From: Archaeoglobus sulfaticallidus PM70-1
GTDB taxonomy: Archaea; Halobacteriota; Archaeoglobi; Archaeoglobales; Archaeoglobaceae
Assembly (NCBI RefSeq): GCF_000385565.1
Contig: NC_021169.1
Span: forward strand, 1,966,571 to 2,030,570
Direction of reading: 5' to 3'
Length of the DNA stretch: 64,000 nucleotides
Below are positions 6,822 through 38,595 of the stretch, in pieces. The notes beneath the pieces were generated by a model that did no database searches, was not told where the DNA came from, and saw only the letters and a program-made list of their open reading frames with translations. Made by a program: the position numbers and the translations under genes. Numbering within the stretch: the first letter of the stretch is position 1; every line of letters starts with the position of its first letter.

Positions 6822-7748
6822 CTACATTTTGGAATACAGGAACCTTATGAGGTCTCTCTCGGTGATTATACCTTCAAGGTTTCCATTATTGACAACGAGA
6901 GCCACACCGTATCCTGATCCTTTCATAAGCTTCACAAGATCGGAAATTCTCTCATCCGGAGGCACGAGCAGTGGCTCCTTGTACACTCTAAGATTCTCGT
7001 TGGATAGTATGTGAGACAGGGGCTGATTCAGGGCTTCCTTGATGTCACCGGTTATCAGCATTTTGAAGGCCTCTCCACTCCCAAAATACCTCAAAATTTC
7101 TCTTGCAGTGACCAATCCAACGAATATACCATCCCTAATCACAGGAAGTCTTCTCATCTTCCTTGAGATCATCAGTTTCATGGCTTCCTCTACAGTAGTA
7201 TCAGGACTGGCTGTTATGACGCCCTTCGTCATATAATTCCTAACAAAACCATCAATTTCTCCATTTTCCGACAAATAGCTCAGGACATCCTTCTCGGTTA
7301 TTATGCCAAGAATTATATTATCTCTATCAACAACAGGGCAACCACCAACCCTTTTCTTTAGCATTAGCTCAATTGCATCTTCAAGAGAAGATGTAAAATC
7401 GATGCTTATCACATCTCCTTCCATTATGGCCTCAACCTCTTCGTTGACTGCAGCCATCAGATTTCCATCATATCTGTTCTGAACGATCTGGTACTTCTGC
7501 CCCCCTCCAAAGAAGTTTATTATATCCGTGACCGTTATAATTCCTTCAAGCCTCTTTGTTCCTGGGTCCGCTATGGGCATCCTTCTGAAATTGTACTTCA
7601 TCATCGACTTCACTGCAGACATTATCGTGGATGTTGGTGGTATCGTAACGACACTCTTCGTGCAGTAGTCCATTATTTCTCCTTCTTTCAGCTTTGCTGA
7701 GTTTTTCTTCTCCCTCGTAGGCTTTCCTGCGTAGTCTTTATACATCAT
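6822..7748 (-). CDS. four-CBS-domain protein
   Basis: A protein of about 308 residues made of four CBS repeats in two Bateman modules. Each repeat shows the typical ending GIITxxDI/L (GIITVTDIINF, GIITEKDVLSY, GLVTAREILRY, GIITERDLIRF). Such proteins bind adenosyl ligands (AMP, ATP, SAM) and act as energy or metabolite sensors, usually through partners. The chosen start (7748) follows GGTGAT; an upstream in-frame start at 7766 exists. It lies between a CBS/Zn-ribbon protein and RNA ligase in one minus-strand operon, suggesting that the ligase or its RNA is under metabolite control (inference). Confidence 0.85.
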   Translation of the reverse strand: MMYKDYAGKPTREKKNSAKLKEGEIMDYCTKSVVTIPPTSTIMSAVKSMMKYNFRRMPIADPGTKRLEGIITVTDIINFFGGGQKYQIVQNRYDGNLMAAVNEEVEAIMEGDVISIDFTSSLEDAIELMLKKRVGGCPVVDRDNIILGIITEKDVLSYLSENGEIDGFVRNYMTKGVITASPDTTVEEAMKLMISRKMRRLPVIRDGIFVGLVTAREILRYFGSGEAFKMLITGDIKEALNQPLSHILSNENLRVYKEPLLVPPDERISDLVKLMKGSGYGVALVVNNGNLEGIITERDLIRFLYSKM

Positions 7749-7762
7749 ATCACCAGAATAAA

Positions 7763-8338
7763 TCATCCCTCGTTAAGCTCTGCACAGTCCTCACAGAGCT
7801 TCAGACCATTATACTCGACAAGATTATCATAGAACTTCCCGCATTTCTCACACTTGCCAAACCTGACATCCTCATACTCACTCTCTCTCAAGAGCATCTT
7901 ATAGTTTTTAATCTCGTTGGACTCTATCAGATCCAGCGAGACACTCAAAATATCGTTGTCCGTTATTATCCCAACAAGCCTGTTTTCATTTACGATGGGC
8001 AACCTCCTGATTCCCTTTTTGAGCATTATTTGGGCTGCCTCCCTCAGGCTCGTCATCGGGTTTATCACAATTAGCGGTGTTGTCATTATATCCTTAAGCA
8101 AAACCTCTGAAGGGGTTTTATTTCTCGATACTACTTTCTCCAAAATATCCTTCTCGGTAACGATTCCAACGGGATTTCCGTTATCCAACACTACAATACT
8201 CCCAACACCACATTCAAGCATTTTTCTCGATGCATTGAGCAAGGAATCTTCAAGACTGGCTGTACAAACTTCTCTCGTCATAATTTCTTTCACTGGTATG
8301 TTATGGGGCATTTCCATCACTATGGGAAAGTCATCCAA
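7763..8338 (-). CDS. CBS-pair protein with C-terminal zinc ribbon
   Basis: About 190 residues. Two CBS repeats (ending GIVTEKDILEKV and GIITDNDILSVS) are followed by a zinc ribbon with Cys-x2-Cys pairs in CEKCGKFYDN and LKLCEDCAEL. The ribbon suggests nucleic-acid or protein binding controlled by an adenosyl ligand. A TATA-like actttaaaac at ~8341-8350 makes a start at the in-frame ATG 8317 plausible, shortening the N-terminus by seven residues. It is the first gene of the operon that continues to the four-CBS protein and RNA ligase. Confidence 0.8.
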   Translation of the reverse strand: MDDFPIVMEMPHNIPVKEIMTREVCTASLEDSLLNASRKMLECGVGSIVVLDNGNPVGIVTEKDILEKVVSRNKTPSEVLLKDIMTTPLIVINPMTSLREAAQIMLKKGIRRLPIVNENRLVGIITDNDILSVSLDLIESNEIKNYKMLLRESEYEDVRFGKCEKCGKFYDNLVEYNGLKLCEDCAELNEG

Positions 8339-8631
8339 AGGGTTTTAAAGTTTTTTGGATGGAGAGGAAATTGTATTTCCGAAATAGCACTTTTAGAGAT
8401 AAAGAGGAAATATGAATCCCTATGCACTCGATAAGCTCTCGCAAGAATCCTCTACCTACTCCAAACAAATTTTCCGGTTTATTCAGGGATTGCTCAAGAA
8501 TACAAACCCATCACACCAGTATTACAAACAGATCCACATACACAATATGAAGTAAATATAATAAATCTTAACCGTAAACAGTAAGTTTGATATAGAATCA
8601 TTGATATATGCTCCAAAAACTGGTGAGAATC

Positions 8632-9444
8632 ATGAAGAGATATCTGATTCTACTGATCCTTATGATCGCATTAGTACCAGTTTCAGCCCAAAAAGTTTAT
8701 ACCAGCACACAAACAGTAAAAGAAGGAGAGAACTTTAAGGTAAAGGTTTATGGTAGTTACTTCGATTCGATAGCTGGGATAGATCTAAACATTCAGTTCG
8801 ACCCATCAGTAATCAAACTGAATGGCATAAGTGCTGGAAAAAATTTCTCAAAGTGTTTTAAATTCAATAATATAAACAATACTAGGGGTTTTGGAAGGGT
8901 TGCCATAATATGCGGTGATGCGAGAACCTTTAAAAATGATTTGATAGCGATATACAGCTTCACAGCTTTAAAAGGTGAAACACATCTGCATATCACAGCC
9001 AGCCTGAGCACTTCTGATTTCAAAACGGTATATCCTGAAACGGTTGATGGTTCTGTGAAAGTGCTCACTAAAGGCTCTCCAGATACCGGTTCTGCAAGTA
9101 CCGGCAGTTCAGGATTGACAGATCCTGCAAACAACGCCCAGAACGGGGTACAACCTACTGTACAACCTACTCAACAGCCAGTAAATACCGTACAGCCAGC
9201 TAAAACCGAACAGACTCCCATAGCAGAGCAGACTCAAAAACCCAAATCCCAAACCGAGCAAAAAACTTCAAGTCCTGCATCCCACACAACTCCAACAGCT
9301 ATTCCAACAACCACAGAAATTGCTACAAAGAGCACAACCGAAGAAAAACTCAATCTGAAGAACATACCCGAGATACCCGGATTCGAGGTGTGTCCACTCC
9401 TTATTGCAGCCCTGATATCAGCAATAAGGAGTAGAAAGTCTTAA
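8632..9444 (+). CDS. secreted cohesin-like protein with PGF-type C-terminal sorting signal
   Basis: A protein of about 270 residues. The start at 8632 (GGTGA eight bases upstream) gives a clean signal peptide MKRYLILLILMIALVPVSA. Residues ~22-150 have the cohesin/bacterial Ig-like pattern (VKEGENFKVKV, IAGIDLNIQFDP, AIYSFTAL). Then follows ~90 residues rich in Thr, Pro, Gln and Ser, a typical glycosylated stalk. The C-terminus IPEIPGFEVCPLLIAALISA plus a basic tail resembles PGF-CTERM signals processed by archaeosortase. It is probably anchored at the cell surface to bind dockerin-type partners. An upstream start at 8608 is less likely. Confidence 0.7.
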   Translation: MKRYLILLILMIALVPVSAQKVYTSTQTVKEGENFKVKVYGSYFDSIAGIDLNIQFDPSVIKLNGISAGKNFSKCFKFNNINNTRGFGRVAIICGDARTFKNDLIAIYSFTALKGETHLHITASLSTSDFKTVYPETVDGSVKVLTKGSPDTGSASTGSSGLTDPANNAQNGVQPTVQPTQQPVNTVQPAKTEQTPIAEQTQKPKSQTEQKTSSPASHTTPTAIPTTTEIATKSTTEEKLNLKNIPEIPGFEVCPLLIAALISAIRSRKS

Positions 9445-31943: not shown

Positions 31944-32600
31944 TTAAGGCAATAGAAGTCTAATGAACGAGTAAGCCTGGTAAAGCCCAAACAGCATAGT
32001 GGGAATCAAAGCCGACACAAAAGCCCTTTTAGTCGTCAGGTTGCGTGCATGTTTTATGGCAAAAGTCCACAACGTTAGAGACCATACAGTTATTGCCAGA
32101 TTTATTATTAGGTTGGAGTAAACTAAATCCCGCGGGAGAATGGACAGCAAAACAGACTTCACGATCTCGGGATTCTGCTGCAACTGTTCTATGCTAATCT
32201 TTGGAACTTTTGCATTCAGCACATAGTAGGCTGACATTGGGATAGTTACAAGAGATCCAACAAGCGAAGGTAGAAACCCGTAGCCTGTAAACTCAAAGGT
32301 TCTCCTAAATGAGCCTTTGCCGTTAAACAACAACGATGATAATCCATGCATCATCACTGTCAATATTAGCCAGACGGCGAATATGCCTATGAATGAGCCT
32401 ATTATGCCGATGTAAGCACCCACTACGAAAAATCCAGCCAAGTCAGACGGGATGACTTGACTGAGTTTTGCTGCCAGCAGGTACTGATACGCTGAAATTA
32501 TCGCTGCTATGGCTACAACGATTGTCATCGGTTTTTGTATTCTGACATCCTCTCTGCTGAGTTCTTGAAAAAACTCGTTGGGGTTGGTTATTAGCTTCAT
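31944..32600 (-). CDS. Yip1-family membrane protein
   Basis: About 218 residues with a soluble start (NPNEFFQELSREDVRIQKPM) and five to six transmembrane segments, a pattern shared with prokaryotic YIP1/DUF1282 proteins of unknown function. The start at 32600 is chosen because a TATA box (tttaaatatc, ~32622-32631) lies about 25 bases upstream, pointing to a leaderless ATG; the frame extends to 32633. Confidence 0.65.
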   Translation of the reverse strand: MKLITNPNEFFQELSREDVRIQKPMTIVVAIAAIISAYQYLLAAKLSQVIPSDLAGFFVVGAYIGIIGSFIGIFAVWLILTVMMHGLSSLLFNGKGSFRRTFEFTGYGFLPSLVGSLVTIPMSAYYVLNAKVPKISIEQLQQNPEIVKSVLLSILPRDLVYSNLIINLAITVWSLTLWTFAIKHARNLTTKRAFVSALIPTMLFGLYQAYSFIRLLLP

Positions 32601-32805
32601 ATTAGATGAAAACATTAATTGATATTTAAACATTTAGGTTAATTAAATGAAAAATAAAAGTTTATAAATTTTTTATCTTTGGGAAAATTGCCATAACTCG
32701 GAAGATATATCAAATAATCCAGAGTTACAGATTTAAATTTTAAATTTTCTAAGTTTTGAGTAAATTTTTACGATATGGGAAATGTACAAAAATATGAGAA
32801 AGAAA

Positions 32806-32850
32806 ATTTTATATACCATAAAATTAAAAGATGATGAATGGCATAGGAGG
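32806..32850 (+). promoter_or_regulatory. promoter and ribosome-binding site of the peptide/DUF95 locus
   Basis: attttatatacc at 32806-32816 is a strong TATA box. AGGAGG at 32845-32850 is a perfect Shine-Dalgarno eight bases before GTG 32859, deciding the start of the first peptide. The GTG at 32850 that extends the frame lies inside the ribosome-binding site and is rejected as start. Confidence 0.65.
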
Positions 32851-32858
32851 TGTGGGAA

Positions 32859-33149
32859 GTGTACGGGTATACCTCAAGGTGGGATGAAGAAACAGTAATA
32901 AAATGGCTGGCAGTGGGGATGGTGTTAGCAATGATAGGGATGGCAGTGATACCAGCTGTAACAGTAGAACCTTCTAAAATAGGCGGAGGGCTTTTGCTAG
33001 CTTGGAACGCTGGAAATGACTTGCTGGATGATGGGCAATATTCATGGCAGACTTACGTCAATATGGCGCTACTGGCAGGAGGTGTGGTTGCTTTTGCACT
33101 CGCTCCCCCGGCAGGTATAGCGTACTGGATAACGGCAGGAACATTATAA
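32859..33149 (+). CDS. candidate archaeocin precursor 1 (conserved leader, hydrophobic core)
   Basis: About 96 residues. Residues ~10-33 are DEETVIKWLAVGMVLAMIGM, almost identical to residues 9-28 of the peptide at 33922, and act as leader or signal helix. The rest differs completely: a Gly-rich hydrophobic core with two helical stretches (GGGLLLAWNAGNDLL and MALLAGGVVAFALAPPAGIA). It is followed by a small two-helix protein and a DUF95/SpoIIM protein, the partner class of circular bacteriocins such as enterocin AS-48. A secreted antimicrobial or signalling peptide is the best reading, by context; no homologue is recalled. Confidence 0.55.
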   Translation: MYGYTSRWDEETVIKWLAVGMVLAMIGMAVIPAVTVEPSKIGGGLLLAWNAGNDLLDDGQYSWQTYVNMALLAGGVVAFALAPPAGIAYWITAGTL

Positions 33150-33164
33150 GCTTTTTGACTTGAT

Positions 33165-33368
33165 ATGTACACAAATAAGCTAAGAACTTTAAGAAACATC
33201 CTAGGAATATGTCTTGTGATTCTAACTATATTTTCTATTATAAATTTTTTATTTGAGATTTCTGGAGAATCCTTGATTCCGATACAATCAGCTCAGGTAC
33301 TGCCCTTTCTTAGTGCTTTGTTGATAATATTTATTTTAATTAACAAATATGTTGAAGATGAATACTAG
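33165..33368 (+). CDS. small two-helix membrane protein (candidate immunity/accessory protein)
   Basis: 67 residues with two transmembrane helices (ILGICLVILTIFSIINFLF and VLPFLSALLIIFILI) and charged ends. It sits between peptide precursor 1 and the DUF95 gene and overlaps the latter by 20 bases. Bacteriocin immunity proteins are often tiny hydrophobic proteins placed here, which is the basis for the guess. An analogous gene of unrelated sequence occupies the same slot in cassette 2 (34249). Confidence 0.55.
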   Translation: MYTNKLRTLRNILGICLVILTIFSIINFLFEISGESLIPIQSAQVLPFLSALLIIFILINKYVEDEY

Positions 33369-33909
33369 TGTCATTATACTAATTTTGTTGTCTGCATTGC
33401 TTTACATTTTTGGGATAATTTTAGGTTACGGCTTGCTTAATGATCTCACAGACCACTCTTTGGCTATTAAAGTTAAATACAACAATAATTCACTTTTACA
33501 ATTTTCTTATCAGAGTATCATAGCGACAAATTTAAATTTGATATTAATTTTGCTGTTAGGATTTGGTGTCGTGACTTCCATAAACCTCGTCTTCAATGGA
33601 GCAAATTTGGCCTTTCTGTACATTGAGAGTCTCAGAAGGGGGATGGATCTTTGGAATTTTCTGATTCTAACGCTCCCTCACGGCATCTTCGAAATTCCCG
33701 CCATAATCATAGCGGGAGCTGCAGGATTCAAAATCCCCTACGAGATCATAAGATATTTAGTAGGTAAAAAAGAAACAATTCTAACAAAAGAAGACGTCAA
33801 AGAATATCTAACCTTAGCCTTAATCTCGATCATCCTGATCGTGATAGCAGCATGGATTGAGGCTAATATAACATTAAAGATGGCCAAATCGATGTTAGGG
33901 AGGTGGTAG
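33349..33909 (+). CDS. SpoIIM/DUF95 family membrane protein, cassette 1
   Basis: 186 residues with about five transmembrane helices. The family core is NLVFNGANLAFLY ... LPHGIFEIPAIIIAGAAGF, with the charged end YLVGKKETILTKEDVKEYL and a final helix. DUF95 proteins include SpoIIM and the maturation/secretion proteins of circular bacteriocin clusters. Its place right after a small peptide precursor suggests peptide export or cyclisation. No ATP-binding ABC subunit is encoded alongside, so energy coupling is unexplained. Confidence 0.8.
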   Translation: MLKMNTSVIILILLSALLYIFGIILGYGLLNDLTDHSLAIKVKYNNNSLLQFSYQSIIATNLNLILILLLGFGVVTSINLVFNGANLAFLYIESLRRGMDLWNFLILTLPHGIFEIPAIIIAGAAGFKIPYEIIRYLVGKKETILTKEDVKEYLTLALISIILIVIAAWIEANITLKMAKSMLGRW

Positions 33910-33921
33910 TTAATTAAACAG

Positions 33922-34206
33922 ATGAAAGTGTGTAAGCGTGAGGTGGATGAAGAAACAGTAATAAAGTGGTTGGCAGTGGGAATGGTATTGGCGATGGTGG
34001 GGATGGTTGTAACGCCGATGATTGGAATTAATGCGGTTGAAATTGGGTATAGTATTGGAAAAAGATACGGGTGGGACACTCAGGAATCAATGCTTTGGGG
34101 AACGGCTGTTGGAGCTACGATTGGTGCTGTGATTGGAGGATTGGCAGGTGGAGTGGCAGGTGCAGGTATTGGTCTTACTTTAGGTGGAATGTGGGGTGCA
34201 GCTTAA
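33922..34206 (+). CDS. candidate archaeocin precursor 2 (same leader, glycine-zipper core)
   Basis: 94 residues. After MKVCKREV comes DEETVIKWLAVGMVLAMVGM, matching precursor 1 almost residue for residue, with matching DNA too. The core is different: a polar stretch (GYSIGKRYGWDTQESMLWGT) followed by a glycine zipper (GATIGAVIGGLAGGVAGAGI) and a short end. Glycine-zipper hairpins insert into membranes, as in many pore-forming peptides. It begins 12 bases after the DUF95 stop, so both cassettes may share one transcript. GTG 33928 is an alternative start. Confidence 0.55.
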   Translation: MKVCKREVDEETVIKWLAVGMVLAMVGMVVTPMIGINAVEIGYSIGKRYGWDTQESMLWGTAVGATIGAVIGGLAGGVAGAGIGLTLGGMWGAA

Positions 34207-34248
34207 CTTTTAAAAAATTATATCTTTTTTACTATACTGGTGATATGA

Positions 34249-34437
34249 ATGAAAAAACCAGTCAATCTTGCCGTATTGGCAATTTTATTATTTGCTTTTG
34301 GTCTTCTTATATGGTTAATTACGATGGAAGAAGATATGTACGAGGCAATATTATGGAGAGATTCTTTTTGGTGTCTATCTGCTGCATTATCGGGGTACGC
34401 ATATGCCATCTCTAAAAAGGAGAATAAAACTCATTAA
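34249..34437 (+). CDS. small two-helix membrane protein, cassette 2 (candidate immunity/accessory)
   Basis: 62 residues: helix one PVNLAVLAILLFAFGLLIWL, a short acidic loop, helix two around FWCLSAALSGYAYAI, and a basic tail. A GGTGAT motif precedes the ATG. It occupies the same position relative to peptide 2 as the 67-residue protein does relative to peptide 1, yet the sequences are unrelated, as expected if each protects against its own peptide (inference). Confidence 0.5.
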   Translation: MKKPVNLAVLAILLFAFGLLIWLITMEEDMYEAILWRDSFWCLSAALSGYAYAISKKENKTH

Positions 34438-34475
34438 TTTATCTTTTATAATATATTCTAAGATTTATAATTATA

Positions 34476-34978
34476 ATGCTAAATATTATAGATTACCCCG
34501 TCCATATCAACCTTGGCAAAAACATAATGACTGACCAACTAGTTAGATCAGACTTTCATTATATTCTGATAAATAACATTAAAGTTATAAAGTTATTTTT
34601 ATTCTAATTTTGGGGTCAGTAACTATGGGATCATCAACCATGATCAACTTATCATTTAACGGAATTCTATTAGGTGCTTTGTTAAAAAAATCAATTACAA
34701 ATAGTATTAGTTTGCAAAATTTTTTGCTCCTAGTCATACCTCACGGTATATTCGAAATCCCAGCTATCATCATAGCTGGGGCAGCAGGTTTTAAGATTCC
34801 CTACGAAATTGTAAGATATTTAGTAGGTAAAAAAGAAACAATTCTAACAAAAGAAGACACAAAAGAATACCTAACCCTCGCAGTAATTTAGATAATCTTA
34901 ATCGTAATAGCAGCGTGGACTGAAGCGAATGTAACACTGAAGATTGCTCAAGCGATGCTGAAAATGAAGGATATTTGA
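34476..34978 (+). pseudogene. second SpoIIM/DUF95 copy, inactivated
   Basis: It parallels the intact copy: INLSFNGILLGALL, then VIPHGIFEIPAIIIAGAAGF and YLVGKKETILTKEDTKEYLT. An in-frame TAG at 34889-34891 stands where the intact gene has TCG (Ser), after which IILIVIAAW and the last helix continue to TGA at 34976. Upstream, the first part (ATG 34476, motif DFHYILINNIKVIKLFLF) is in another frame and stops at about 34607, so a frameshift also occurred. The N-terminus is diverged. Confidence 0.8.
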
Positions 34979-35056: not shown

Positions 35057-35920
35057 TTAAAATCGTAGACTTGTTTCACTCTCTCCTCTTTTCCTTGGCA
35101 TCGGATAGAACTCAACATTCGGATATCTCTGCATCATCGGTTGTGGATACAGCTCCATCAGCATGTAAACCTCTTCCGGCACATCCGTTCTGACATTAAG
35201 ACCAAGTTCCTTCGCAACCTCAACAGTTATTGGATAATCGTGTGTCCATTTCCCTTCCGTGAGTATCTTTGCAACTTCCTTTGCTTTCTCATCACCCATC
35301 TTGTCTCTCAGCAACTCATAAACGAAACTCCGAACCTGATTGATTGCTTTCTCAGCCAGATCTGCAAGAATAAGCGTTTTATCCTCAACATCCTTTGGAT
35401 CCTTTTTTGAAACTGCTTTGACTATGGATGGAGCGGGATAGTTCATCAATTGCGGATCTACCGGGCCCAAAACTGCGTGAGGATCCATTATTATCTCATC
35501 CGCTGCCAGAGCTATGAGCGTCCCACCACTCATAGCATAGTGCGGGACTATAACACTCGTCTTGGCGGGATGACTCTTGAGGGCCTTAGCGATCTGAGAT
35601 GCTGCAAGCACAAGCCCACCAGGGGTATGGATGACGAGGTCGATCGGTTGATCCTTTGGTGTTGTCCTTATCGCCCTCAGAACCTGCTCGGAGTCTTCAA
35701 CATTTATGAACCTGTAGAACGGTATTCCAAAGAGTCCTATGCTCTCCTGCCTGTGTATCATCGTAATGACATTGGATTTCCTTTTTGCACTCATTTTTTC
35801 CATCAGAGCTTTTCTCGTGTTCACCAATTGTCTATGTTTTATCTGTGGTCCTAGGATCAGATAGAACAGAAACAGAAACCATATCAGGTTGAAAAAAGAT
35901 CCAGTAGGGTCGTAAACCAT
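35057..35920 (-). CDS. ClpP-fold membrane-anchored serine protease (SDH/DUF114 family)
   Basis: 287 residues. One N-terminal transmembrane helix (FFNLIWFLFLFYLILG) is followed by a crotonase/ClpP-like domain. The oxyanion/His region IDLVIHTPGGLVLAA, catalytic Ser in HYAMSGGTLIALAAD and the GPVDPQL motif are those of the SDH (SppA-like) proteins. It is probably a membrane-surface protease. It converges on the broken DUF95 copy with about 80 bases between. Confidence 0.85.
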   Translation of the reverse strand: MVYDPTGSFFNLIWFLFLFYLILGPQIKHRQLVNTRKALMEKMSAKRKSNVITMIHRQESIGLFGIPFYRFINVEDSEQVLRAIRTTPKDQPIDLVIHTPGGLVLAASQIAKALKSHPAKTSVIVPHYAMSGGTLIALAADEIIMDPHAVLGPVDPQLMNYPAPSIVKAVSKKDPKDVEDKTLILADLAEKAINQVRSFVYELLRDKMGDEKAKEVAKILTEGKWTHDYPITVEVAKELGLNVRTDVPEEVYMLMELYPQPMMQRYPNVEFYPMPRKRGESETSLRF

Positions 35921-36042: not shown

Positions 36043-38595
36043 TCAGCCATATTTCCTCAAAAATTCCCTGACCTTTTCCGACTCCAGCCAGCCCTTGTCA
36101 AGTCTTTTGATGATGTCTTCTATCCTCTCAGCCTGCTGGATTATCAACTCAGATAGTTTTCTGTCCTTTATTTCAAGTTCTGCTAACAAGATTATAGCTG
36201 CTAACGGGTTCCTTATGTGATCAACCAGTATTGCAAATTGTTCTATGTTCTGTTCTATTTGCCGATATGCCTTTCTTTTCATTTCATCCAATTCAATTGC
36301 CTTTATCGCAAAAGCCAAGTCTTCAGCCATTGTTCCGAGCAACTCCAGTTCATCATCACTTATCTCCCTACTGGTTGTTAAATAAAGTGTGATTACGCCC
36401 TTAACCTCACCATCAACAACCATCGGTATCGATATTACGCTTTTGATCCCAGTTAGTCCACATCCAACACATATCCCTCCATCCCTGATGGTAATTGATT
36501 TACTTTCAATAGCTTTCTTTATTATTTCGCACTCTCTGTGTTTTCTCAACAGGTTATCCAGTATCTCATCACCACCCACAGAAACTGCCACCGGTATGAT
36601 CGCTCCATCCTTTACCAGACAGAGCGTTGCAATGGAGTAATCCTCCAGTGAAGCCAGCTCTTCACTTGCCCTCTCAAGCAGTTTCTGTTTGTCTTTCTCG
36701 TGGACAATGAGTTTATTGATGTTGTATATTGCATTGAGCAATCTATTCAGCCTCACCAGATCAGTAATTTCTTTCGCCAAAATCAGGCAATATTTTCCAT
36801 CTGGAAGATCAACTGGAACTAAACTAACCGAGAAATATCTACCATCCCTCACATCTTCTGTTGTTACTAGCCTATCCTCATCTAACACCTTGGTTAACAG
36901 CTCCATCCTCCTTTCTGCAACTTCCTTAGGAAAGAGTTCAAAAAGACTTTTACCCACCGGGTCTTTACCAATACTTTTAATTGTTGCTGGGTTTGCTTCA
37001 ACGAACACACCATCTTTGTCCAATATTGCAATACTATACGGCGAGTTTTCAAAAATCTTCCTGAATTTCTCCTCAGATTCCCTAATCTTTCTCTCCATTT
37101 CAATTCTCTCTGTCAGATCAACACCAATAGATGCTGCTCCGACTGTCTTGCCTTCAGCATCCTTTATAGCAAAATTGTACCACTCAACCATCAATTTCCT
37201 GCCATTTTTTGCGATATTTTCGTTCACATTTATCTTCGATTCTCCTGTTTTCATGACTTCTTCGATGACTTCTCTGACCCTTTCCCTCTCACTTTCAGAT
37301 ATCATCAACTCAATCAAGTCCCTTCCCATCACTTCCTCAGCCTTCCATTCAAACATTTTTTCTGCTGTTTTATTCCACAGATTAACCCTAAAATTCAAAT
37401 CCCAGCCAATAATTGCTGCCGGTGCAACATCTATCATCCTCTGCAACAGCTCAGCAGTTTCTCTGTATTTAGCCTCACTCTCCCTGAGTTTCATTTCAAG
37501 TTCAATTCTTTCCGTTACATCTCTTGCAATTATCACGCCCCCAACAAAGCTGTCATTGATAAACATTGGTGAACCTTTTGACTCAAGCCATATCCATTTT
37601 CCATCCTTCCTCCTGTACCTGTGAACTATCTTACCCGGTCTTTTTGTTTCCACAGCCCTGAAAAATTCGGCTCTAACAGCATCGAGATCATCGGGATGAA
37701 CTTGCTCAAAAACCGGCTTCCCTACCAGATCCTCCGGCTTGTAACCCAGCACACTTTCAACAGACGGACTTACATATGTTCTTATTCCATTCTCATCAAC
37801 AGTCACTATGATATCCCTCGAGTTTTCAACAATCAGGCGATATTTCTCCTCATTTTTTCTCAGCTCCTCTTCCAGCTTCTTTCTTTGCGTTATATCCCTT
37901 TTAATCCCGACATAACAAATAACATCGCCCTTATCATCTTTCAACGCGAAAGCTGAGAGTTCAACATAGATGGGGGATCCATCCTTTCTGTAGCATTTTA
38001 TTTCACCACGATACCACCCTTTTTTAGAAATCTCCTCATAGATTTTTGAGAACTGTTCCTCACCCATGTGGATTGCCGGAGTTTTCCCTTTCAGCTCATC
38101 ATCAGAATACCCCAACAGTTCTCTATGTGCCTGATTCTGCTCTACATAGTTACCATCAGCATCGATGATTGCAATACCATCATTTGAATTGGTAAAGATC
38201 TCCCTGTAAAGCTTTAGCCTATCCTCAAGCTCCTTCCTCTTCGTTATGTCTCTCTCAACACAGAATATTGCCTTTTTACTCTCATAATCGATCAATCTTG
38301 CATGAACTTCAGCATAGTAACAGGTACCATCTTTCCTCTCTCTTTTTAATTCGACTACAGCATATCCATCCTCCATAACCTGTTTGAGTCTCTCATCAAC
38401 TTTTTTGGGATCGTAATCTGAAAGCAATTGCCTAACATTCATTTCTAACAACTCCTCCTCACTGTATCCCGTTGTTTTCTCTGCAGCACTGTTTACCTCA
38501 AGAATATTCCCGTTTAAATCCAAGATATACACAGGATCAGGAATTACCTCAAAAATCTCTTTGAATTTTCCACCGAGTTCCATAGGTGGCATCAT
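36043..38595 (-). CDS. multi-PAS/GAF sensor with H-box but no ATPase domain
   Basis: 850 residues: five PAS domains (starting near residues 10, 130, 250, 375 and 495, e.g. YRLIVENSRDIIVTVDENGI), a GAF domain (~620-765, with CVGCGLTG) and a C-terminal helical region with the H-box motif DHIRNPLAAI (His793). The protein ends 57 residues later, so there is no HATPase_c domain to phosphorylate that histidine. No membrane segments: a cytosolic redox or ligand sensor. It could be phosphorylated in trans by another kinase. The orphan receiver at 4998 is a conceivable partner. Confidence 0.9.
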   Translation of the reverse strand: MMPPMELGGKFKEIFEVIPDPVYILDLNGNILEVNSAAEKTTGYSEEELLEMNVRQLLSDYDPKKVDERLKQVMEDGYAVVELKRERKDGTCYYAEVHARLIDYESKKAIFCVERDITKRKELEDRLKLYREIFTNSNDGIAIIDADGNYVEQNQAHRELLGYSDDELKGKTPAIHMGEEQFSKIYEEISKKGWYRGEIKCYRKDGSPIYVELSAFALKDDKGDVICYVGIKRDITQRKKLEEELRKNEEKYRLIVENSRDIIVTVDENGIRTYVSPSVESVLGYKPEDLVGKPVFEQVHPDDLDAVRAEFFRAVETKRPGKIVHRYRRKDGKWIWLESKGSPMFINDSFVGGVIIARDVTERIELEMKLRESEAKYRETAELLQRMIDVAPAAIIGWDLNFRVNLWNKTAEKMFEWKAEEVMGRDLIELMISESERERVREVIEEVMKTGESKINVNENIAKNGRKLMVEWYNFAIKDAEGKTVGAASIGVDLTERIEMERKIRESEEKFRKIFENSPYSIAILDKDGVFVEANPATIKSIGKDPVGKSLFELFPKEVAERRMELLTKVLDEDRLVTTEDVRDGRYFSVSLVPVDLPDGKYCLILAKEITDLVRLNRLLNAIYNINKLIVHEKDKQKLLERASEELASLEDYSIATLCLVKDGAIIPVAVSVGGDEILDNLLRKHRECEIIKKAIESKSITIRDGGICVGCGLTGIKSVISIPMVVDGEVKGVITLYLTTSREISDDELELLGTMAEDLAFAIKAIELDEMKRKAYRQIEQNIEQFAILVDHIRNPLAAIILLAELEIKDRKLSELIIQQAERIEDIIKRLDKGWLESEKVREFLRKYG

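Follow-up and report, generated by a model that had tools for sequence, protein, structure and literature searches.

Circular bacteriocin clusters are defined as a class by a gene encoding a SpoIIM protein (PMC6131525, PMC13289728), without which mature leucocyclicin Q is left inside the cells (PMC7132975). All known clusters also encode an ATP-binding transporter protein, and one bacterial cluster contains a YIP1 gene (PMC8534725). In the enterocin AS-48 cluster, the SpoIIM/DUF95 member is As-48C (PMC5695211; plasmid pPD1 record), and not AS-48B as a first-pass annotation of the DNA studied here had it. Archaea go unmentioned in three surveys of bacterial circular bacteriocins (PMC5695211, PMC7132975, PMC8534725). 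Variable membrane cassettes combining arCOG01996 (SpoIIM), arCOG02054 (Yip1), and arCOG09673 were described by Makarova in 2014 and 2015 (PMC4158269, PMC5898192). In the passages of these papers that deal with the cassettes, membrane-associated defence was suggested for these loci in 2014 (PMC4158269) and membrane remodelling was proposed from the same gene set in 2015 (PMC5898192, section 3.3). The same passages do not describe a conserved leader followed by a variable core, a core-partner linkage, two conserved arms, or orphan partners. The suspicion of the first-pass annotation that the class had perhaps already been proposed was therefore justified, with another function put forward; an earlier bacteriocin proposal for these loci may also exist, e.g. 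in the 2019 archaeal toxin literature.

The locus that we analyzed resembles the cassettes in those published passages by gene content and taxa, which define the likeness in place of assigned arCOG numbers. Both occur in Archaeoglobi and Pyrococci, with a SpoIIM paralogue that differs from the housekeeping one, a Yip1 neighbour, small and highly diverged membrane proteins, and repeated cassettes. The window, i.e. the whole 64,000-nucleotide stretch of DNA under analysis, comes from a genome of 2.08 Mb assembled as a single contig, whose closest relatives are Archaeoglobaceae. It contains two cassettes, which lie between a divergent gene encoding a Yip1-family membrane protein (31944-32633, minus strand; PF04893, 97 bits, 1.1e-27) and a convergent gene encoding an SDH-class protease. 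The Yip1-family gene, which diverges from the first peptide gene, is part of the unit and was absent from the first-pass annotation.

Cassette 1 is preceded on the plus strand by a TATA-like box TTTATATA (32808-32815; 8/8, a pattern match only) 51 bases 5' of the start, and by a Shine-Dalgarno sequence GGAGGTG (32846-32852) that is indeed perfect as first annotated (7/7), 6 bases 5' of GTG 32859. Many homologous leaders are preceded by TATA-like boxes at similar spacing, and most by a good Shine-Dalgarno sequence. GTG 32859, which is common to homologues, is the best start for the peptide 1 precursor of 96 aa (32859-33149, plus strand; 'MYGYTSRWDEE...'). It consists of a conserved signal-like leader (32859-32954) and a variable core of 64 aa (32955-33146). 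The next gene (33165-33368, plus strand) encodes a two-helix membrane protein of 67 aa (H1), homologues of which are found 3' of the same core in L024/L051 and L044. Because partners resemble each other only where their cores do, H1 is the probable immunity partner of core 1. H1 was also considered as a holin, and this was rejected since its matches are weak only (PF04688, 0.031; phrog_263, 0.002). The last gene of the cassette encodes an intact SpoIIM protein (33349-33909, plus strand, alternative start 33358; PF01944, 90 bits, 2.1e-25), in which the N-terminal half is variable and the C-terminal half is conserved from LPHGIFEIPAI (about 33679) onward. One additional SpoIIM, of the housekeeping type, is encoded elsewhere in the genome.

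In cassette 2, the peptide 2 precursor of 94 aa (33922-34206, plus strand) has the same leader, DEETVIKWLAVGMVLAM(I/V)GM, and an unrelated, glycine-zipper-like core from about 34018, whose match to Gly-zipper_YMGG (1.6e-5) is below the cut-off. It is followed by a second two-helix membrane protein of 62 aa (H2; 34249-34437, plus strand), recognized by position and hydropathy. H2 is the probable immunity partner of core 2, and it is the weakest part of the set because no homologue was found for it; several of the annotations depend on small ORFs. The second SpoIIM gene (about 34427-34977, plus strand) is a pseudogene broken by a frameshift and by an in-frame TAG; in a whole-genome search, the match covers HMM positions 7-185 with five stops inside (one TGA, two TAG, and two TAA). 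The sizes first given for the peptides (∼95 residues, with a leader) and for the two-helix proteins (62-67 residues) are thus accurate, whereas the SpoIIM gene assigned to each cassette is intact in the first only, and cassette 2 was rejected as a complete cassette.

When peptide 1 was searched for in 60 relatives, its leader was found in many Archaeoglobaceae, with a SpoIIM gene 0.2-0.8 kb 3' of it in nearly all loci. The condition that would have refuted the bacteriocin-like reading, i.e. peptides occurring as ordinary membrane proteins apart from DUF95 genes, was thus not borne out. As judged by this association, and by purifying selection on the peptide 1 core (dN 0.07, dS 0.39, dN/dS 0.18 versus L044), the window peptides are real genes. 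SpoIIM search scores are bimodal, with cassette-type copies scoring far higher than the housekeeping copies, of which each genome has approximately one, and a tree separates archaeal cassette from housekeeping SpoIIM (support 100/99). Cassette-type SpoIIM is found in 27 of 59 Archaeoglobi genomes and in about 19 of 94 Thermococcales genomes. The distribution is patchy, since in the window's own genus cassettes are present in one of six genomes, that of the window. Thermococcales cassettes have another, equally conserved leader, MWRKALALGLVLMAIGVVVGG. We extracted 50 peptide cassettes, of which 47 remained after dropping three with broken cores; all 47, from Archaeoglobaceae and Thermococcales, have a small membrane ORF of only about 56-195 aa between peptide and SpoIIM. 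Median core length is 65 aa (57-78) in Archaeoglobaceae and 70 aa (52-89) in Thermococcales, with 64 aa for core 1 and 62 aa for core 2 of the window. Haloarchaeal-type matches (G245/G389) were rejected as cassettes, because they have SpoIIM without a peptide.

Pairwise comparison over all 50 cassettes revealed a strict pattern of conservation. Median identities in Archaeoglobaceae are 56% for the leader, 22% for the core, 15% for the partner, 24% for the N-terminal half of SpoIIM, and 82% for its C-terminal half; the corresponding values in Thermococcales are 86, 20, 17, 36, and 79%. Housekeeping SpoIIM proteins do not display the cassette-type contrast, with N/C identities of only 35/46% and 51/66%. 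A cassette thus has a variable middle, from the core to within the SpoIIM gene, with a conserved arm on either side.

Within this middle, core and partner vary together. Similarities of cores and partners are strongly correlated (Mantel r 0.746, p 0.001), whereas cores correlate little with leaders (0.147) or SpoIIM C-halves (0.065); leaders and SpoIIM C-halves, i.e. the two arms, correlate with each other (0.495). The core-partner correlation is 0.742 when controlled for leader and SpoIIM C-half (p 0.001), 0.384 among pairs with dissimilar leaders (p 0.001), and 0.28 without the closest pairs (p 0.001). All 18 pairs with homologous partners have homologous cores, and homologous partners are absent from all 987 pairs of unrelated cores; the converse is weaker, since only 16 of 39 core-similar pairs have clearly similar partners. 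The same core and partner are even found across orders behind different leaders (L066/L025 with L148, and L045 with L163). In one Thermococcales cassette type (L174:3664-4204, L165, and L052), core and partner share a 32-residue segment, KYHxYMELYR.AL...YKSxAEEYS (score 113 versus 28 ± 5 for shuffled sequences), as if the protector mimicked the peptide.

Sequence divergence along the cassettes is equally discontinuous. Between the window and L044, dS is 0.39 in the peptide 1 core, saturated in the leader, and 1.78 in the SpoIIM C-half, and near the leader/core junction DNA identity jumps from about 0.48 to 0.78-0.88. Likewise, L141 and L143 differ by a dS of 0.02 in core and partner and of 1.40 in the SpoIIM C-half. 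This synonymous divergence shows that blocks of core and partner move separately from their flanks. SpoIIM C-halves are more similar within genomes (median identity 0.83) than between genomes (0.77), with a p value (9e-5) that is indicative only because within-genome pairs are not independent; within a genome, they reach 98.9% DNA identity despite different N-halves. Close core pairs show no sign of diversifying point mutation (dN/dS mostly 0.03-0.26; L141/L143 are too close to judge), so that core variety seems to be due to exchange. Carriage by mobile elements was rejected, with no match on viral contigs and no tRNA gene close to the cassettes.

Partner homologues also occur as orphans, without a peptide. 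The Pyrococcus-like genomes L162, L163, and L168 have several each; L120 has one, as does Ferroglobus-like L034, whose orphan is homologous to the L028 partner (E 6e-70) and lies just 3' of a different cassette. These come from a list of 29 rows, in which a few entries are either peptides or known partners read in another frame. Bacteriocin and polymorphic toxin systems typically include orphan immunity genes.

Group ii circular bacteriocins (gassericin A and plantacyclin B21AG) are among the systems closest to the cassettes. Like these, the cassettes encode a hydrophobic leader of about 33 aa and a Gly/Ala-rich core of about 58 aa ending at the stop codon, and have an adjoining SpoIIM gene and a small membrane protein, which is the immunity protein in group ii. 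In circular bacteriocins generally, the leader is followed by about 58-70 aa of core running up to the stop codon, a size that suits the cassette cores, which match gassericin A in length, hydropathy, and Gly/Ala content. Moreover, cassette SpoIIM matches bacteriocin SpoIIM proteins by profile comparison (96.5%). Unlike in group ii, where the order is peptide-SpoIIM-partner, it is peptide-partner-SpoIIM in the cassettes, and the window locus lacks an ABC transporter. Core homology went undetected: the cores match no known circular bacteriocin family in Pfam or NCBIfam, and comparison with group ii precursors by hhalign yielded 0.1%. In a SpoIIM tree, cassette SpoIIM is not placed with bacteriocin SpoIIM, the bacterial rows being long branches. 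As to the saposin-like or helical-bundle fold of circular bacteriocins, an AlphaFold2 model of the peptide 1 core, built with three sequences, has three helices at low confidence (mean pLDDT 57). The partners are hydrophobic with a median charge of +5; typical immunity proteins are cationic, which H1 (−1) and H2 (0) are not. The enterocin AS-48 cluster likewise combines a long leader, a hydrophobic core, and a SpoIIM protein; it differs by a cationic core, the large As-48B protein, and ABC systems, and no sequence similarity was detected between its peptide and those of the cassettes. Polymorphic toxin-immunity systems share with the cassettes a conserved trafficking part, a variable toxic part, and immunity genes that are either matching or orphan. 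The putative toxin of the cassettes differs from the large multidomain toxins of these systems in being a small peptide, and the variable block of the cassettes also reaches into the SpoIIM gene.

By analogy, the cassettes may work like a circular bacteriocin system, one without core homology or, at the window, a nearby ABC ATPase. We say "works like" and not "belongs to" because of the missing core homology, the SpoIIM clade, which the tree does not place nearest to bacteriocin SpoIIM proteins, and the low-confidence core model. The first-pass reading of the locus as circular-bacteriocin-like is thus strongly supported in its bacteriocin-like part by the pairing of a conserved leader with a hypervariable core, by partners inherited along with cores, by orphan partners, and by mosaic exchange; the data speak neither for nor against "circular". 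Our guess would be that cyclic products are a minority prospect, although a substantial one.

The cassette system is real, conserved, and ecologically suggestive, and little is known about competition among hyperthermophilic archaea. On genomic grounds, we consider it reasonably probable that the locus encodes an archaeal bacteriocin-like peptide (archaeocin) with dedicated immunity and SpoIIM-aided maturation or export, diversified by cassette exchange. The precursor would consist of a signal-like leader and a hydrophobic, Gly/Ala-rich core acting on membranes of related cells, and the small membrane protein would protect the producer against its particular core. The SpoIIM protein would be needed for maturation and/or export, and the divergent Yip1 protein would be a shared accessory. 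New specificities would arise mainly by exchange of the block comprising core and protector, with or without the SpoIIM N-half, between a left arm (promoter to leader) and a right arm (SpoIIM C-half). A more ambitious composite, in which these are widespread archaeal polymorphic peptide toxins, core, immunity, and SpoIIM N-half are exchanged together between the arms, the SpoIIM N-half serves as a domain for recognizing its particular core, and the products are cyclised head-to-tail, strikes us as rather doubtful as a whole.

The neighbourhood of the cassettes bears on other explanations. Most of the Archaeoglobaceae loci that we examined have a Yip1 homologue head-to-head 5' of the peptide, and all cassette products are membrane proteins. 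Both facts would suit a stable envelope complex of Yip1, SpoIIM, and small membrane proteins involved in remodelling or vesicles, with the peptide as a structural subunit, in line with the proposal made from the same gene set in the passage cited above (PMC5898192, section 3.3). However, Yip1 was not found in Thermococcales cassette loci, and such a complex leaves unexplained why cores and partners covary behind a fixed leader, why partners occur as orphans, and why a genome has several cores; we regard it as improbable. The suggestion of membrane-associated defence (in the passage of PMC4158269) would fit an intracellular toxin-antitoxin or antiviral abortive system, in which an infected cell has its own membrane damaged by the peptide, with the small protein as antitoxin and SpoIIM as regulator. 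Linked pairs and orphan partners suit antitoxins too. Nevertheless, a conserved signal-like leader on a core that ends at the protein C terminus suggests export and processing, and the cassettes have no informative PHROG match and, as mentioned, none on viral contigs; a known phage-defence family was rejected because PADLOC gave no match. This makes an intracellular system quite improbable. Peptide signalling in kin recognition or quorum sensing, with the core as a pheromone exported by SpoIIM and a transporter (as one would infer) and the small membrane protein as its receptor, would also produce covarying ligand-receptor pairs, but it is very improbable given partners this short with no signalling domain in those scanned, a 64-aa, very hydrophobic core that is atypical of pheromones, and arrays of ligandless receptors that would be less expected.

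If the archaeocin reading is true, the genomes of Archaeoglobaceae and Thermococcales directly reveal peptide toxin-immunity pairs by the dozen. Since Thermococcales are an order with genetically tractable members, each pair would give a clear test. In addition, given the conserved/variable split, N-halves could be swapped between cassettes to test what SpoIIM does in circular bacteriocin maturation, a long-standing question. Membrane peptides that are very heat-stable may also find practical applications.

A Pfam scan of the main genes between 24.8 and 46 kb in the window identified no ABC ATPase. A third lineage, that of a methanogen-like relative (G300; L183, reverse complement 7342-8996), has two peptides, a small membrane protein, and SpoIIM, with Yip1 head-to-head, and this set lies between an ABC ATPase with a MacB-type permease and ABC-2 permeases. 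Its peptides, which are 5' of the partner and SpoIIM, are short, 95% identical, and almost leaderless.

Directly downstream of the cassettes in the window, on the opposite strand, is the gene for the SDH-class, ClpP-like membrane serine protease (35057-35920). It was rejected as a cassette component, being absent from the gene families common to at least three cassette loci. It adjoins a large ORF of 850 aa (36043-38595, minus strand), which reads like a multi-PAS sensor protein. Two short contigs labelled Desulfurellaceae and Arcobacter (L044 and L053) bear typical Archaeoglobaceae cassettes and are probably misbinned archaeal contigs. Scattered short C-terminal SpoIIM fragments in L121, L122, L123, L124, and other stray matches, some in frame with unrelated sequence, are probably relics of lost cassettes. 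Finally, a near copy of window core 1 in another genome (L051 3845-4054, on the same contig as L024) has lost its leader frame by frameshift and retained its partner gene.
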